Part shown: one piece after another, positions 27,428 through 33,228 of the stretch | Position numbering within the stretch: position 1 is the stretch's first letter | Layout of the letters: each line of letters starts with the position of its first letter | Notes under the pieces: generated by a model | What the model saw: only the letters and a program-made list of their open reading frames with translations | What the model was told of the DNA's origin: nothing | Databases searched by the model: none | Program-made: the position numbers and the translations under genes | Source of the DNA: Massilia sp. Root351 | GTDB lineage: Bacteria > Pseudomonadota > Gammaproteobacteria > Burkholderiales > Burkholderiaceae_D | Direction of reading: 5' to 3' | DNA: 64,000 bases | NCBI RefSeq assembly: GCF_001425045.1 | Contig: NZ_LMDJ01000004.1 | Span: 124,322-188,321, forward strand

Positions 27428-27443
27428 TGGCACAGCTATTGCA
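27428..27443 (+). promoter_or_regulatory. Sigma-54 promoter of the nitrate transporter operon
   Basis: TGGCAC-N5-TTGCA (27428-27443), matching the -24/-12 consensus TGGCAC-N5-TTGC exactly and with correct spacing. The start would be near 27454, giving a leader of about 50 nt. Nitrogen control by RpoN/NtrC is the usual mode for nitrate assimilation transporters. Confidence 0.8.
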
Positions 27444-27502: not shown

Positions 27503-28735
27503 ATGGACAGCAAAATCAGCTTGACTCGCCGCAGCCTGTTGAAAGCCGGCGCCGCCACCGCACTCTCCGGCCTTGCCACGCAAGGCGTCTGGGCCGCCGG
27601 CTCGGACAAGCCTGAAAAGGAAGAGGTCAAAGTCGGTTTCATCCCGCTCACCGACTGCGCGTCGGTGGTGATGGCGTCCGTGCTGGGCTTCGACAAGAAG
27701 TACGGCATCAAGATCGTGCCGAGCAAGGAATCGTCCTGGCCCGGCGTGCGTGACAAGCTGGTCAACGGCGAGCTGGATGCGGCGCACGTGCTGTACGGCC
27801 TGGTCTACGGCGTGCACCTGGGCGCGGGCGGCCCCAAAAAAGACATGGCCGTGCTGATGAACCTGAACCACAACGGCCAGGCCATCACGCTGTCCAAAAA
27901 GGTGGCCGACAAGGGCGGCGTGGACGGTCCCTCGCTGGCCGCGCTGATGAAGAAAGACCCGCGCGAGTACTCCTTCGCGCAGACCTTCCCCACCGGTACC
28001 CACGCCATGTGGCTGTACTACTGGCTGGCCAGCTACGGCATCAATCCGATGAAGGACGCCAAGGTGATCACGGTGCCGCCGCCGCAGATGGTGGCCAATA
28101 TGCGCATCGGGAACATGGACGGCTTCTGCGTGGGCGAGCCTTGGAACCACCGCGCCATCGTGGACGGCATCGGCATCACCGCCACCACCACCCAGGAGAT
28201 CTGGCGCGACCACCCGGAAAAGGTGCTGGGCACCAGCGCCGAGTGGGTGAAGAAGTATCCCAATACCGCGCGCGCACTGACCGCCGCCATTCTCGACGCC
28301 AGCCGCTGGATCGACGCGTCGCTGTCGAACAAGATGAAGATGGCTGAAACCATCGCCGACAAGTCCTATGTGAACACCTCGGTGGACGTGATCAACCAGC
28401 GCATCCTGGGACGCTACCAGAATGGCCTGGGCAAGACCTGGGACGACCCGAACTCGATGAAGTTCTACAACGACGGCTCGGTGAACTTCCCCTACCTGTC
28501 GGACGGCATGTGGTTCCTTACGCAGCAAAAGCGCTGGGGCCTGCTCAAGGCCGAGCCGGACTACCTGGCCGTGGCCACGCAGATCAACCAGATCGACGTG
28601 TACAAGGACGCTGCCGCCATGGCCAAAGTGGCGGTGCCGAAAGCGCCGCTACGCAGCGTCAAGCTGATCGACGGCACCACCTGGGACGGCAAGAATCCGA
28701 AGGCCTACGCCGATTCATTCAAGATCAAAGCATAA
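27503..28735 (+). CDS. nrtA: Nitrate/nitrite ABC transporter substrate-binding protein
   Basis: A 410-residue binding protein of the NrtA/SsuA group. The N terminus has a Tat-type signal (TRRSLLKAGAATALSG). The mature part begins VKVGFIPLTDCASVVMAS and contains SSWPGVRDKLVNGELDAAHV, TFPTGTHAMWLYYWLASYGI and MDGFCVGEPWNHRA, diagnostic of the nitrate-binding family. It captures nitrate or nitrite in the periplasm. First gene of a three-gene operon behind a sigma-54 promoter, with GGGGATAAG before the ATG. Confidence 0.9.
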   Translation: MDSKISLTRRSLLKAGAATALSGLATQGVWAAGSDKPEKEEVKVGFIPLTDCASVVMASVLGFDKKYGIKIVPSKESSWPGVRDKLVNGELDAAHVLYGLVYGVHLGAGGPKKDMAVLMNLNHNGQAITLSKKVADKGGVDGPSLAALMKKDPREYSFAQTFPTGTHAMWLYYWLASYGINPMKDAKVITVPPPQMVANMRIGNMDGFCVGEPWNHRAIVDGIGITATTTQEIWRDHPEKVLGTSAEWVKKYPNTARALTAAILDASRWIDASLSNKMKMAETIADKSYVNTSVDVINQRILGRYQNGLGKTWDDPNSMKFYNDGSVNFPYLSDGMWFLTQQKRWGLLKAEPDYLAVATQINQIDVYKDAAAMAKVAVPKAPLRSVKLIDGTTWDGKNPKAYADSFKIKA

Positions 28736-28744
28736 GGAGCAGCC

Positions 28745-29680
28745 ATGAGCGCAGTCCTGCACAATATCGCCGCCGCACCAGCCACAGCCGCCGCAGTGCC
28801 TGCGGCCATAGCCGCAGCAGCCAATGACGAGGCGCCGCCCAAGCCGGCGCGCAGCGAGCGCATCGCCGCCAAGGGCATCAAGCTGGAATCGGGCAGCGCG
28901 CGCCTGCGGCCCTTCGTGATGAAGTATCTGCCGCCCGTGATCGGCCTGGCGCTGCTGGTGCTGGCGTGGCAGATCCTGGCCGCCAAGAACAGCAGCTTCC
29001 CCACGCCCTGGGCCACCTGGGAGGAGGCGGTCAAGCTGTTCTCGGACCCGTTCTACCGCAAGGGGCCGAACGACCAGGGCATAGGCTGGAACGTGCTCGC
29101 GTCGCTGCAGCGGGTGGGCATCGGCTTCGGCCTGGCCGCGCTGGTGGGCATCCCGCTTGGCTTCATCATCGGCCGCTTCAAGTTCATGTACGGCATGTTC
29201 AGCCCCATCATCAGCTTGCTGAAACCGGTGTCGCCGCTGGCCTGGCTGCCGATCGGCCTGCTGGTCTTCAAGGCCGCCGATCCGGCCGCCATCTGGTCGA
29301 TCTTTATTTGCTCGATCTGGCCGATGATCATCAACACCGCCGTCGGCGTGCAGCGCGTGCCGCAGGACTACATGAACGTGGCGCGGGTGCTGAGCCTGTC
29401 GGAATGGAAGATCGTCACCAAGATCCTGCTGCCGTCCGTCCTGCCCTACATGCTGACCGGCGTGCGGCTGGCCATCGGTACCGCGTGGCTGGTGATCGTC
29501 GCGGCCGAAATGCTGACCGGCGGCGTGGGCATCGGCTTCTGGGTCTGGGACGAATGGAACAACCTGAACGTGCCGCACATCCTGATCGCCATCGGCGTGA
29601 TCGGCATAGTCGGACTGTTGCTGGAATGGGCGCTGGTGTCGCTGGCCCAAGCCTTCACCTACGAACAAGTGGAGAACTGA
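28745..29680 (+). CDS. nrtB: Nitrate ABC transporter permease
   Basis: A 311-residue inner-membrane permease. A hydrophilic Ala/Pro-rich N terminus of about 60 residues precedes six helices. The ABC-permease EAA loop is visible (EYMNVARVL-like DYMNVARVLSLSEWKIVTKI, then LPSVLPYMLTGVRLAIGTAW). NrtB family features include GVGIGFWVWDEWNNLN. Nine bases separate it from nrtA, with AAGGAG in the gap. Confidence 0.9.
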   Translation: MSAVLHNIAAAPATAAAVPAAIAAAANDEAPPKPARSERIAAKGIKLESGSARLRPFVMKYLPPVIGLALLVLAWQILAAKNSSFPTPWATWEEAVKLFSDPFYRKGPNDQGIGWNVLASLQRVGIGFGLAALVGIPLGFIIGRFKFMYGMFSPIISLLKPVSPLAWLPIGLLVFKAADPAAIWSIFICSIWPMIINTAVGVQRVPQDYMNVARVLSLSEWKIVTKILLPSVLPYMLTGVRLAIGTAWLVIVAAEMLTGGVGIGFWVWDEWNNLNVPHILIAIGVIGIVGLLLEWALVSLAQAFTYEQVEN

Positions 29681-29681
29681 T

Positions 29682-30488
29682 ATGAGCGCGAACAAATTCA
29701 TCGACATCAGCAACGCCGAGATGGTGTTCAACACCAAGAAGGGCCAGTTCCATGCGCTGGCCAATGTGAACCTGGCGGTGCAGCAGGGCGAATTCATCAC
29801 GCTGATCGGCCACTCCGGCTGCGGCAAGTCCACCCTGCTCAACCTGATCGCGGGCCTGACCACCGCCACCGGCGGCGTCCTGCTGTGCAACGGCCGCGAG
29901 ATCGCCGGGCCGTCGCCGGAGCGCGCGGTGGTGTTCCAGAACCATTCGCTGCTGCCGTGGCTGACCTGCTACGAGAACGTCTACCTGGCGGTGGAGCGCG
30001 TCTTCAGCGCCAGCGAGAACAGCAAGCAGCTGCAGGAGCGCACCTGGGCCGCGCTGGCGCTGGTGGGCCTGACGGCGGCGGCGGGCAAGCGTCCCCATGA
30101 AATTTCGGGCGGCATGAAGCAGCGCGTCGGCATTGCCCGCGCGCTGGCGATGGAGCCCAAAGTGCTGCTGATGGATGAACCGTTCGGTGCGCTGGACGCG
30201 CTCACGCGCGCCCACCTGCAGGACGAGCTGCTGCGCATCGTGGCGGCCACCGGTTCAACGGTGGTGATGGTGACCCACGACGTGGACGAGGCGGTGCTGC
30301 TGTCGGACCGCATCGTGATGATGACCAACGGCCCTGCGGCGACCATCGGCGACATCGTGCAGGTGCGCCTGGCGCGCCCGCGCGAGCGCCTGGCGCTGGC
30401 GCAGGACCCGCTCTACATCGACTACCGCACCAGCGTGCTGGAGTTCCTGTACCACCGCCAGGGACGGCCGGCGCAGAAGGCCGCCTGA
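29682..30488 (+). CDS. Nitrate ABC transporter ATP-binding protein
   Basis: A 268-residue ABC ATPase. Walker A GHSGCGKSTLLN, Q-loop VVFQNHSLLPWL, signature ISGGMKQRVGIARAL, Walker B VLLMDEPFGALD and H-loop VMVTHDVDEAV. It is the single NrtD-type ATPase form, without the NrtC C-terminal regulatory domain. The ATG lies one base after the permease stop. No nitrate or nitrite reductase gene follows; the next gene (tsaD) is on the other strand. Confidence 0.9.
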   Translation: MSANKFIDISNAEMVFNTKKGQFHALANVNLAVQQGEFITLIGHSGCGKSTLLNLIAGLTTATGGVLLCNGREIAGPSPERAVVFQNHSLLPWLTCYENVYLAVERVFSASENSKQLQERTWAALALVGLTAAAGKRPHEISGGMKQRVGIARALAMEPKVLLMDEPFGALDALTRAHLQDELLRIVAATGSTVVMVTHDVDEAVLLSDRIVMMTNGPAATIGDIVQVRLARPRERLALAQDPLYIDYRTSVLEFLYHRQGRPAQKAA

Positions 30489-30555: not shown

Positions 30556-31596
30556 TCAAACAACCTTCAGCTCATCCAGCGGCCAGCGCGGGCGCACGTT
30601 GAAGGCGTAGTCCTTCTGCGCCGCGTCCGGGTTGATCATCAGGCGCATGGCGCCGGCAAAGGCGATCATGGCGCCGTTGTCGGTGCAGAACTCCAGCTCC
30701 GGATAGTAGACCTTGAACTTCTTCTTGGCCGCCGCCGCGTTCAGCGACGCGCGCAGCTGCGCGTTGGCGCCCACGCCGCCGGCGATCACCAGCCGCTTCA
30801 GGCCGGTGTGCTTGAGCGCCGACACGCACTTGGCCGTCAGCACCTCCACGATGGCGTCGACAAAGCCGCGCGCGATGTCGGCCTTGTCCTGCTCGCAGAT
30901 GTTGGCGATCACTTTTTCTTCGTGGTTCTTCACCACCGTCAGCACCGCCGTCTTCAGGCCGGAGAAGCTGAAGTTGAAATCCTTGGTGTGCATCATCGGG
31001 CGCGGCAGCTTGTAGGCTGTGGGGTCGCCGAACTCGGCCAGGCGCGAAATGGCCGGGCCGCCCGGATAGCCCAGGCCCAGCAGCTTGGCCGACTTGTCGA
31101 ACGCTTCGCCGGCCGCGTCGTCCAGCGTCTCGCCCAGCAGGGTGTACTGGCCCACGCCGTCTACCCGCATCAGCTGCGTGTGGCCGCCCGACACCAGCAG
31201 CGCGATGAAGGGGAACGCCGGCGGCTGCGAGGCCAGCAGCGGCGACAGCAAATGGCCCTCCAGGTGGTGCACGCCCAGCACCGGCTTGTCCAGCGCCATG
31301 CCCAGGCTGCAGGCGATCGACGAGCCCACCAGCAGCGCGCCGGCCAGGCCGGGCCCTTGCGTGTAGGCGATGGCGTCGATGTCGGCCAGCTGCTTGCCGG
31401 CGCCCGTCAGCGACTGCTCCAGCAGCGGGATGGCGCGCCGGATATGGTCGCGCGAGGCCAGCTCGGGCACCACGCCGCCGTACTCCTCGTGCATGGCGAC
31501 CTGGGAATACAGGGCATGGGAAAGCAGGCCGCGCTCGGTGTCATACAGCGCCAGGCCGGTTTCGTCACAGGAAGATTCAACGCCGAGAACGATCAT
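30556..31596 (-). CDS. tsaD: tRNA N6-threonylcarbamoyladenosine transferase TsaD
   Basis: A 346-residue ASKHA-fold enzyme that, with TsaB and TsaE, transfers threonylcarbamoyl to A37 of ANN-decoding tRNAs. N-terminal [19 protein letters not shown] is the family signature; the iron-binding histidines are in [12 protein letters not shown], and [12 protein letters not shown] and [13 protein letters not shown] are conserved. Length is standard. Essential gene in most bacteria. It is divergent from the small NirD-like gene, with palindromic element B between them. Confidence 0.95.
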
Positions 31597-31699
31597 TGGA
31601 ACAGTGCAAAGTGAAAGGGGAATCCGCCATTGTAATGGAAAGCGCGCCCGGCCCGCACCAAAGGGGCCCGCGCCGCACCGCCGCAGGGCGCACGGCCAA

Positions 31700-31768
31700 G
31701 CAGCCTGAGCCGCATTCCCGCACCTTCGGGGTCAGACCCCGAAGGTGCGGGAATGCGGCTCAGCTTGC
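31700..31768. repeat. Palindromic intergenic element, copy B
   Basis: A nearly perfect 69-nt inverted repeat: outer arms GCAGCCTGAGCCGCATT and AATGCGGCTCAGCTTGC, inner arms CCCGCACCTTC and GAAGGTGCGGG, centre GGGGTCAGACCCC. The outer arms equal copy A (23327) base for base in the same orientation, the core is the reverse complement of A's, and the inner arms differ completely while remaining complementary. It lies between the divergent tsaD and NirD-like genes. Confidence 0.9.
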
Positions 31769-31825
31769 CAAGGCTGGCATCGGTCTTGCTTCATCGGAAA
31801 CATGCAACCCGAAGGAGCCTGAACC

Positions 31826-32122
31826 ATGGCTGAGTATTGGAAACTGATCTGCAAGCTGAAAGACATCCCGCCGCAGGGCATGCGCCTGGTGCCGCGCGGG
31901 CTGGCGTGGCAGGAGCTGCCCGGCGTGGCGGTGATACGCACGCTGGACGACCAGGTCTTCGCCATCCTCGACGGCGGCGCGCGCCATTACGCCGTCAAGC
32001 TGGAGGAGGGCAAGATTTTCCTGGACCTGAATGAACTGAACGCCCCGGCCAGCCGTGCGGAAGCGGCGTTGGCGGGGGCGTTCGGGGTTGCCCCGCACGT
32101 GGGGGCGAATTCCTGGACCTAG
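31826..32122 (+). CDS. NirD-like protein lacking the Rieske iron-sulfur segment
   Basis: A 98-residue protein. Its first 51 residues read as the N-terminal part of assimilatory nitrite reductase small subunit NirD (YWKLICKLKDIPPQGMRLV, then GVAVIRTLDDQVFAILD). The following HYAVKLEEGKIFLDLNEL reads as the NirD C-terminal strand. In NirD about 45-50 residues lie between these, with the CPH and CPLH cluster motifs; here they are missing in frame, with only GGAR at the junction. The C terminus has a further 25 unfamiliar residues. AAGGAG before the ATG is intact. It may be a decayed gene or a repurposed small protein. No nirB is in the window. Confidence 0.65.
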   Translation: MAEYWKLICKLKDIPPQGMRLVPRGLAWQELPGVAVIRTLDDQVFAILDGGARHYAVKLEEGKIFLDLNELNAPASRAEAALAGAFGVAPHVGANSWT

Positions 32123-32169: not shown

Positions 32170-33228
32170 TCACGGACGCTTCAGCAGCTCCGCGTGCGCC
32201 TTGCGCAGCATGTCGGCCGTGGTGTCCCAGTCGATGCAGCCGTCGGTCACCGAGCAGCCGTACTTCAGCTCGCCCAGGTCGGCCGGGATCTTCTGGTTGC
32301 CGGCCACGATGTTCGACTCGATCATCACGCCCACCAGCGACTGGTTGCCGTGCGTGATCTGGTTGACCACGTCCGTCATCACCAGCGGCTGCAGTTCCGG
32401 TTTCTTGTAGCTGTTGGCGTGCGAGCAGTCCACCACCACGTTGGCCGGCAGCTTGGCCTTGGCCAGCGCCTGCTCGGCAATCGCCACCGACACCGAATCG
32501 TAGTTCGGGCGGCCGTCGCCGCCGCGCAGCACCACGTGGCCGTAGGCGTTGCCGCGGGTGCGCACGATGGACACATTGCCTTCGCTGTTAATGCCGAGGA
32601 AGGCGTGCGGATTGGCGGCCGACAAAATCGCATTGATGGCGATGCCGATGTCGCCGTCGGTGCCGTTCTTGAAGCCGACCGGGGTCGACAGGCCGGACGA
32701 CATTTCGCGGTGCGTCTGCGACTCGGTGGTACGGGCGCCGATCGCGGTCCACGCGATCAGGTCGCCCAGGTACTGCGGAGAGATCGGGTCGAGCGCCTCC
32801 GTCGCGGTCGGCAGGCCCAGTTCGCACACGTCCAGCAGGAACTGGCGCGCCTTTTCCATGCCCACGTCCACGCGGAAGGAGTCGTCCATGTCCGGATCGT
32901 TGATATAGCCCTTCCAGCCGGTGGTGGTGCGCGGCTTCTCGAAATACACGCGCATGACCAGCAGCATGGTGTCGGCCACTTCGGCCTGCAGCGCCTTGAG
33001 GCGGCGCGCATAGTCCAGGCCCGCCACCGGGTCGTGGATGGAGCAGGGGCCGACCACGACAAACAGGCGCTTGTCCTTGCGGTCCAGGATGGCGCGCAGG
33101 TCGGCGCGGCCCTGCATCACGGTGGCCGACGCGGCGTCGGTCAGCGGCAGTTTCGCGTGCAGCGCCGTCGGGGTCGGCATGGACGCGAAGTTGGTAACGT
33201 TTACGTTTTCGATATCTGGCGAGATCAT
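32170..33228 (-). CDS. aroG: 3-deoxy-7-phosphoheptulonate synthase, class I (AroG type)
   Basis: A 352-residue DAHP synthase that condenses PEP and erythrose 4-phosphate, entering the shikimate pathway. Conserved motifs: FVVVGPCSIHDP, MRVYFEKPRTTTGWKGYIND, DLIAWTAIGARTTESQTHRE, GFKNGTDGDI, VDCSHANSYKKP and GLMIESN-like GVMIESNIV. The N-terminal extension typical of feedback-inhibited Phe/Tyr/Trp isozymes is present. The ATG at 33228 follows GAGG; the longer reading frame upstream is an unrelated sequence. Confidence 0.93.
   Translation of the reverse strand: MISPDIENVNVTNFASMPTPTALHAKLPLTDAASATVMQGRADLRAILDRKDKRLFVVVGPCSIHDPVAGLDYARRLKALQAEVADTMLLVMRVYFEKPRTTTGWKGYINDPDMDDSFRVDVGMEKARQFLLDVCELGLPTATEALDPISPQYLGDLIAWTAIGARTTESQTHREMSSGLSTPVGFKNGTDGDIGIAINAILSAANPHAFLGINSEGNVSIVRTRGNAYGHVVLRGGDGRPNYDSVSVAIAEQALAKAKLPANVVVDCSHANSYKKPELQPLVMTDVVNQITHGNQSLVGVMIESNIVAGNQKIPADLGELKYGCSVTDGCIDWDTTADMLRKAHAELLKRP

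Follow-up and report, generated by a model that had tools for sequence, protein, structure and literature searches.

A small gene near the nitrate transporter operon of Massilia sp. Root351 encodes the two ends of NirD, the small subunit of the assimilatory NADH nitrite reductase, without the middle that should hold the iron-sulfur cluster. Such a gene raises a simple question: is it a relic of a lost nitrite reductase, or a protein that has been kept for a job of its own? We examined it within its surroundings (the window, that is, the whole stretch of 64,000 nucleotides that was analyzed) and among its orthologues in related genomes, asking where it comes from, how it lost its middle, and what has been conserved since.

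A NirD-like protein without its cluster-binding segment

The gene, hereafter the orphan, is composed as follows.

31826..32122, + strand: orphan NirD-like ORF, 98 amino acids plus stop, with an ATG start, delimited with the help of orthologues
31812..31817, + strand: ribosome-binding site AAGGAG
31826..31972, + strand: N-terminal half of the Rieske base domain, residues 1-49 (alignments; omega 0.155 over 36 short forms)
residues 23-34, + strand: conserved loop PRGLAWQELPGV, inside the N-terminal half of the base domain (alignments)
31973..31981, + strand: three-residue linker GGA in place of the cluster-binding segment (alignment)
31982..32038, + strand: C-terminal half of the base domain, residues 53-71 (alignment; omega)
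32039..32119, + strand: lineage-specific tail, residues 72-98, with the core PASRAEAALAG (invariant residues; omega 0.096 over 36 short forms)

HMM support alone is weak, and it is therefore the orthologues that settle the NirD-like identity: the window protein fails the family score test, with 13.7 bits against TIGR02378 (NirD; cut-off 74.65), and its match to Pfam Rieske_2 (PF13806) reaches 16.1 bits, below the cut-off of 27. With the same NirD model, the orthologue from Pseudoduganella namucuonensis (L077) scores 67.4 bits and that from M. glaciei 87.3 bits. L077, of 139 amino acids, is the nearest orthologue that has the segment: between the same two ends it carries 44 residues with CPH...CPRH, where the window protein has GGA. 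The segment being gone, a Rieske ligand test found no CxH...CxxH cluster ligands in the window protein. The alignments thus indicate that the 98-residue ORF encodes a NirD-like protein that has lost its [2Fe-2S]-binding segment in frame.

The preliminary description, made from the window alone, had already read the ORF as a NirD lacking its Rieske segment in frame, with start codon and ribosome-binding site intact, and the comparison with L077 bears this out; only the size of the gap has to be corrected, from 45-50 residues to 41 relative to L077, slightly fewer than proposed (where it is kept, the segment measures 39-44 residues). Two features had escaped that description, the conserved tail (residues 72-98) and a sigma54-type promoter at 31775-31790. 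In the tail, P74, A75, S76, E79, A81, L82, A83 and G84 are invariant in both of our alignments, and both the tail and the WQELP loop are missing from four other NirDs compared (L068, L072, L073 and L074). A single-genome artefact or a sequencing error is ruled out by the occurrence of short forms in 36 of 66 aligned rows.

An ancestral nirB-nirD-nasA operon between tsaD and aroG

Three neighbors define the locus.

27503..30488, + strand: nrtA-nrtB-nrtC, nitrate ABC transporter (nrtB and nrtC over NCBIfam cut-offs; nrtA labeled from its position and a weak SsuA-family match)
30556..31596, - strand: tsaD, left boundary of the ancestral nirBD-nasA site
32170..33228, - strand: aroG-type DAHP synthase, right boundary of the ancestral site (start codon inferred from the ORF of the M. 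glaciei locus; the listed ORF extends to 33366)

The transporter operon lies at the distance first estimated, 1.3 kb (nrtC ends at 30488, hence 1.34 kb), and, in agreement with the preliminary description, no nirB was seen in the examined stretch of the window. The genome does possess nirB (C1:286834), a NirD over the cut-off (C1:289398) and a nasA relative, grouped on another contig than that of the window (C1 versus C4), with a 467-aa ORF before nirB. Of the 31 genomes examined in this respect, 30 yielded a nirB (E up to 1e-100), and a NirD scoring above the cut-off turned up in 29.

A scan of GTDB genomes for two conserved motifs gave 67 named loci, a selection that overstates how well the two motifs are conserved and passes over decayed copies. 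They belong to Massilia, Pseudoduganella, Duganella, Rugamonas and Janthinobacterium, with some records named to higher rank only. In 65 of the 67, tsaD and aroG flank the orthologue and no nirB adjoins it; 63 of these encode 93-139 amino acids, the two others being L138, frameshifted at 45 aa, and L136, which runs on to 175. Wherever a locus holds both genes, the orphan is convergent with aroG. Only two loci have nirB directly upstream, L132 (M. glaciei) and L097 (MAG ES-bin-46). The gene order of L132 is narK-like, nirB, nirD, nasA-like, the last standing between nirD and aroG (nirB and nirD are over NCBIfam cut-offs, and the nasA and narK labels are best matches below cut-off). The L097 contig ends before aroG and shows, after nirD, the start of an ORF labeled nasA-like for its likeness by eye to that of L132. 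At the same tsaD-aroG site, genome G171 carries a nirBD without loop and tail, and the nirB of this site is the sole nirB found in G125 and G171.

Since nirB stands upstream and a nasA-like gene follows nirD in M. glaciei and in the MAG, gene order argues that the orphan is what remains of a nirB-nirD-nasA operon at the tsaD-aroG site. The series of syntenic orthologues, which begins with a full-length NirD next to nirB and ends with the short form, likewise places the orphan in common descent with NirD. The origin suggested at the outset, from a lost nitrite reductase, is in this respect upheld.

The gene is not present everywhere. In a profile search, less selected than the motif scan and with profile rows chosen from the same family, the orphan was absent from 27 of 74 congeners (25 of 71 among good-quality genomes); it is therefore dispensable. 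As nirB is present in 73 of the 74, with or without the orphan, co-occurrence was uninformative as a clue to a partner. In a wider search with E up to 0.01, at least 135 of the 294 genomes of the family gave a match; it mixes orphans with ordinary NirDs and was not used for counts. We inspected 16 loci without the gene (13 of the same genus, 3 of other genera): the tsaD-aroG gap is a bare 100-172 bases in ten and 599-1263 bases in six. A 17th genome without the gene has no comparable aroG locus.

The segment was lost repeatedly, with nearly the same borders

For the counts of forms and for selection, 66 rows were usable (65 loci and the window), L136 and L138 being dropped for their overlong frame and frameshift. 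An automatic cut left 3-19 residues of the segment in 36 of the 66 and 39-44 in the other 30; it put three N-half residues of L093 into the segment of that row (19 instead of 16). All four ligands survive in six rows: L077, L084, L087 and L092, without nirB, and L097 and L132, with nirB.

Mapped by parsimony on a tree of tsaD, aroG and ybiB, the deleted or present state of the segment requires at least six changes. Support is under 80 for 12 of the 66 inner branches of this flanking-gene tree, and in our judgement four deletions stand without its weaker forks. One of the short-form groups, the window clade (the window, Massilia sp. Root418 and P. aquatica), nests with starred support within Pseudoduganella species that keep the segment. 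Each time, the borders of the deletion fall at nearly identical residues. The NirDs that adjoin nirB (L097:4072-4476 and L132:6001-6405) already carry a RGLAWQ(E/D)LP loop and a PAS(R/K)AE tail, which implies that both elements predate the loss of nirB.

The short forms are under purifying selection

M0 codon models were fitted with an in-house script that takes its branch lengths, after scaling, from the flanking-gene tree, with no codeml cross-check. Over the 36 short forms, omega was 0.155 for the N half, 0.199 for the C half and 0.096 for the tail, and omega = 1 was rejected for the three parts (2dlnL of 335, 99 and 197, respectively). For the whole gene, omega was 0.149 over the 36 short forms and 0.043 over the three sequences of the window clade. 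The weakest nominal rejection, with 2dlnL 5.0, concerned 19 codons of the window clade; two small-sample fits with extreme scale values, the window-clade tail and the Pseudoduganella tail, were left out. In Janthinobacterium the ligand-free segment has been kept and is itself constrained (omega 0.164, 19 sequences). Compared with L075, the window gene has 15 synonymous and 6 nonsynonymous differing codons; compared with L077, 19 and 19 of its 98 codons differ in these two ways.

Nine genomes of the Duganella clade provide a scale: omega was 0.119 for the orphan versus 0.057 for the NirD of their second locus, 0.036 for TsaD and 0.041 for AroG. The codon fits thus describe the orphan as constrained, less tightly than a working NirD subunit. 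The short form is conserved across genera under purifying selection; its homologues are related to NirD, and it is neither private to this genome nor neutral. The other part of the initial proposal, that the retained protein is decaying, is not supported: frames are open and of normal length in 65 of the 67 loci, omega is low and the promoter is conserved, even though loss of the whole gene is frequent.

A promoter sequence apparently inherited from nirB

The scans for regulatory sites used sigma54 and NtrC consensus sequences, and gave three features.

31775..31790, + strand: sigma54-type promoter TGGCATCGGTCTTGCT, starting 51 bases before the start codon (upstream alignments)
31675..31689, + strand: degenerate NtrC-like site GCAC-N7-GGGC (consensus scan)
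27428..27443, + strand: strict sigma54-type site ahead of nrtA; the window has no other besides that of the orphan

An alignment of 14 loci shows an invariant TGGCA...TTGC block upstream of the gene. The strict motif TGGCAY-N5-TTGCW lies at most 260 bases from the start in 64 of 68 rows, L136, L138 and the window included, for an expectation of about 0.018 per row. The four exceptions are L097 and L132, where nirB intervenes, L135, where the last base differs, and L139, so that 64 of the 66 rows without nirB have the strict site. None was found between tsaD and aroG in the 16 inspected loci that lack the orphan. At the level of sequence, then, a sigma54 -24/-12 box is present. The NtrC-like core GCAC-N7-GTGC accompanies it in 50 of the 68 rows, and the window and its three nearest relatives have it with one mismatch (GCAC-N7-GGGC).

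Sigma54-type sites also precede nirB itself in L132 and L097. Because the upstream regions of five orphans can be aligned with the one ahead of nirB in L097, tsaD-proximal bases and sigma54 box included, the orphan seems to have inherited the promoter of nirB upon deletion of the latter. The second nirB cluster of the window genome has a strict sigma54-type site as well, upstream of the 467-aa ORF and nirB. In Burkholderia cenocepacia, the values listed for nirB, NirD and the nitrate reductase gene upon mutation of ntrC are -6.5 to -6.8, and these genes are NtrC-dependent (PMC5491218).

The upstream region holds other elements. In the upstream regions of L075-L141, the distances that separate the NtrC-like core from the sigma54 box tend to group near 18, 29, 40, 52-54 and 60 bases, which may hint at helical phasing. 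A palindrome around GGGGTCAGACCCC occupies 31705-31763; its 15-mer CGGGGTCTGACCCCG occurs 61 times in the window genome, often paired about 120-230 bases apart, like a REP/REPIN family. In the window and in L075, this REP-like element separates the NtrC-like site from the sigma54 box. In Pseudoduganella flava (L087:5715-6005), a long inverted repeat, GAGGCCGTGTCC...GGACACGGCCTC, lies between tsaD and the orphan.

Structure models of the base domain

AlphaFold models computed from the family alignment were of low confidence, both for the short form (pLDDT 63, pTM 0.47) and for L077 (pLDDT 69, pTM 0.60). The short model shows six strands, placed as in the base domain, and that of L077 the same six plus four in the segment missing from the window protein; the tail has no defined structure in these models. 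With Foldseek, the L077 model gave 190 matches at E <= 0.001, and the low-confidence short model none, its best match, a Rieske ferredoxin, being at 0.007. With VIA-align, residues 4-72 of the low-confidence short model matched Rieske ferredoxins with Z up to 8.6 (2i7f, 1.8 A over 61 residues) and NirDs with Z 6.2-7.3, the E. coli protein at 7.3; a Z near 8 can reflect a common arrangement, and the 50 listed rows are all Rieske proteins or domains. Searched by sequence against solved structures, the short-form profile stayed at chance level (best E 0.046, ribonuclease PH; E 0.54 for 2jo6, the E. coli NirD structure).

A proposed retained base, and its alternatives

Descent from NirD, loss of nirB and nasA at the site, repeated deletion, selection and an inherited promoter sequence are what the aligned genomes demonstrate, and they frame any proposal on function. 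The reading that we favor, somewhat above even, is that the orphan is a retained, nitrogen-regulated, cluster-free NirD base, a surviving nirD that would act by binding a protein of nitrate or nitrite assimilation. Its history would run as follows. An ancestral nirB-nirD-nasA nitrate-assimilation operon stood between tsaD and aroG, and a second nirBD-nasA cluster elsewhere in the genome would supply nitrite reductase. Loss of nirB and nasA at the old site left nirD directly behind the sigma54 promoter of nirB. The electron-transfer cluster would no longer have been needed; on several occasions the cluster-binding subdomain was removed in frame, or its ligands were altered by mutation, and purifying selection continued to act on the Rieske base domain, the WQELP loop and the PASRAEAALAG tail. 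Expression would respond to nitrogen limitation through NtrC, and the protein would have a non-redox action, as adaptor or modulator, via loop and tail, its partner being most likely the second NirB or NasA. Several observations weigh against this reading: the gene is missing from many congeners that have nirB; Janthinobacterium lividum PAMC 25724 keeps it although no nirB or nasA was detected there; the NtrC-like site of the window clade is mismatched and, in the window and L075, followed by the REP-like element; synonymous and nonsynonymous differences from L077 are equal in number; and the structure models are of low confidence.

That the iron-sulfur segment was lost repeatedly, yet the gene conserved behind a nitrogen-stress promoter, points to a job that probably needs no metal cluster; the scaffold or decoy role raised in the preliminary description is possible on the sequences. 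In P. denitrificans, NasG, a small protein of the Rieske type, is reported to serve the reduction of nitrate as well as that of nitrite (PMC5424462), and a NirD-like protein may therefore contact both enzymes; a cluster-free base could bind and modulate either reductase. A review describes NirD as the structural subunit (PMC12830290). A bolder form of the proposal, which we advance as tentative, would make of the WQELP loop and the tail a second binding interface evolved beside NirB: the orphan would now be a free-standing nitrogen-controlled regulator in which the interface alone was selected after the second nirBD cluster took over catalysis, the iron-sulfur subdomain being stripped in parallel (in six lineages by parsimony). 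Nothing on such an orphan NirD was found in the literature, a weak absence as the search covered open-access PMC only.

The most serious competitor, which we consider rather unlikely, is a neofunctionalized nitrogen-starvation protein that kept promoter and base fold and has its partner outside nitrate and nitrite assimilation. It is suggested mainly by Janthinobacterium lividum PAMC 25724 (L120), which keeps the orphan and both promoter elements, and where no nirB or nasA was detected at E up to 1e-100. The loop and the tail, missing from the four other NirDs, are moreover among the most conserved parts of the orphan; they are, however, already found in the NirDs beside nirB, and in the window genome nrtABC and the second nirB cluster have strict sigma54-type sites upstream as well. 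Relaxed selection in L120 was looked for: the foreground omega of 0.190 exceeds the background of 0.116 without reaching significance (2dlnL 2.85). Among the 19 branch fits of this test, that of L133 gave a negative statistic and did not converge.

Slow decay, in which the orphan would be a relic that happens to have stayed open, is strongly disfavored. Repeated loss of the segment, frequent loss of the whole gene, the frameshifted MAG copy (L138; G334, with a contig of equal length, has one internal stop) and an omega about twice that of a working NirD could all be read in its favor, but every fit nominally rejects omega = 1 and gives a value far below it, the in-frame deletions recur with nearly equal borders, and start, ribosome-binding site and promoter are conserved. 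Least plausible is that the transcript or promoter alone matters, for instance through nitrogen-dependent antisense transcription into aroG: the conserved promoter and the convergent orientation would suit it, but selection bears on amino acids, tail included, and a nasA-like gene separates nirD from aroG in L132.

Comparison with known systems

The retained base that we favor is best judged against its relatives. With NirD, NasE and NasG, small subunits of assimilatory NADH nitrite reductases, the orphan shares ancestry and the two ends of the base domain, as well as the ancestral nirB-nirD-nasA order and the sigma54-type promoter of nirB. It differs from them in having no adjoining nirB, no cluster segment and a score below the NirD model cut-off, and in its extra WQELP loop and PASRAEAALAG tail.

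E. coli NirD lacks the cluster ligands too, as do the second-locus NirDs of the nine Duganella-clade genomes (L162-L170), in which no CxH/CxxH ligands were found in a full-length segment; both NirD-type proteins of these nine genomes therefore appear cluster-free. These second-locus NirDs have a full-length segment and an adjoining nirB, and the orphan has neither. The Rieske ferredoxins of aromatic dioxygenases, which carry cluster ligands, resemble the predicted base-domain fold of the orphan (Z 8.6 to 2i7f); they transfer electrons, whereas the orphan is without ligands.

NirP1, a small NtcA-controlled protein, binds cyanobacterial nitrite reductase, according to its description (PMC10907346). 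Small and nitrogen-controlled like the orphan, it could be a functional analogue if the orphan modulates nitrite reductase; the enzyme type and the organisms are different, the likeness is one of analogy, and binding is shown for NirP1 alone.

On alignment and gene order, then, the orphan is a descendant of NirD that nevertheless fails the score, operon and ligand tests for a NirD. Its locus offers a natural series at a fixed site, in several genera, from a NirD beside nirB to an orphan with ligands, to the loss of the ligands and to the excision of the subdomain. This series makes two questions testable: whether NirD, the E. coli-type NirDs being ligand-free as well, has a role besides carrying electrons, and whether a Rieske base domain can work without its metal-binding insert.
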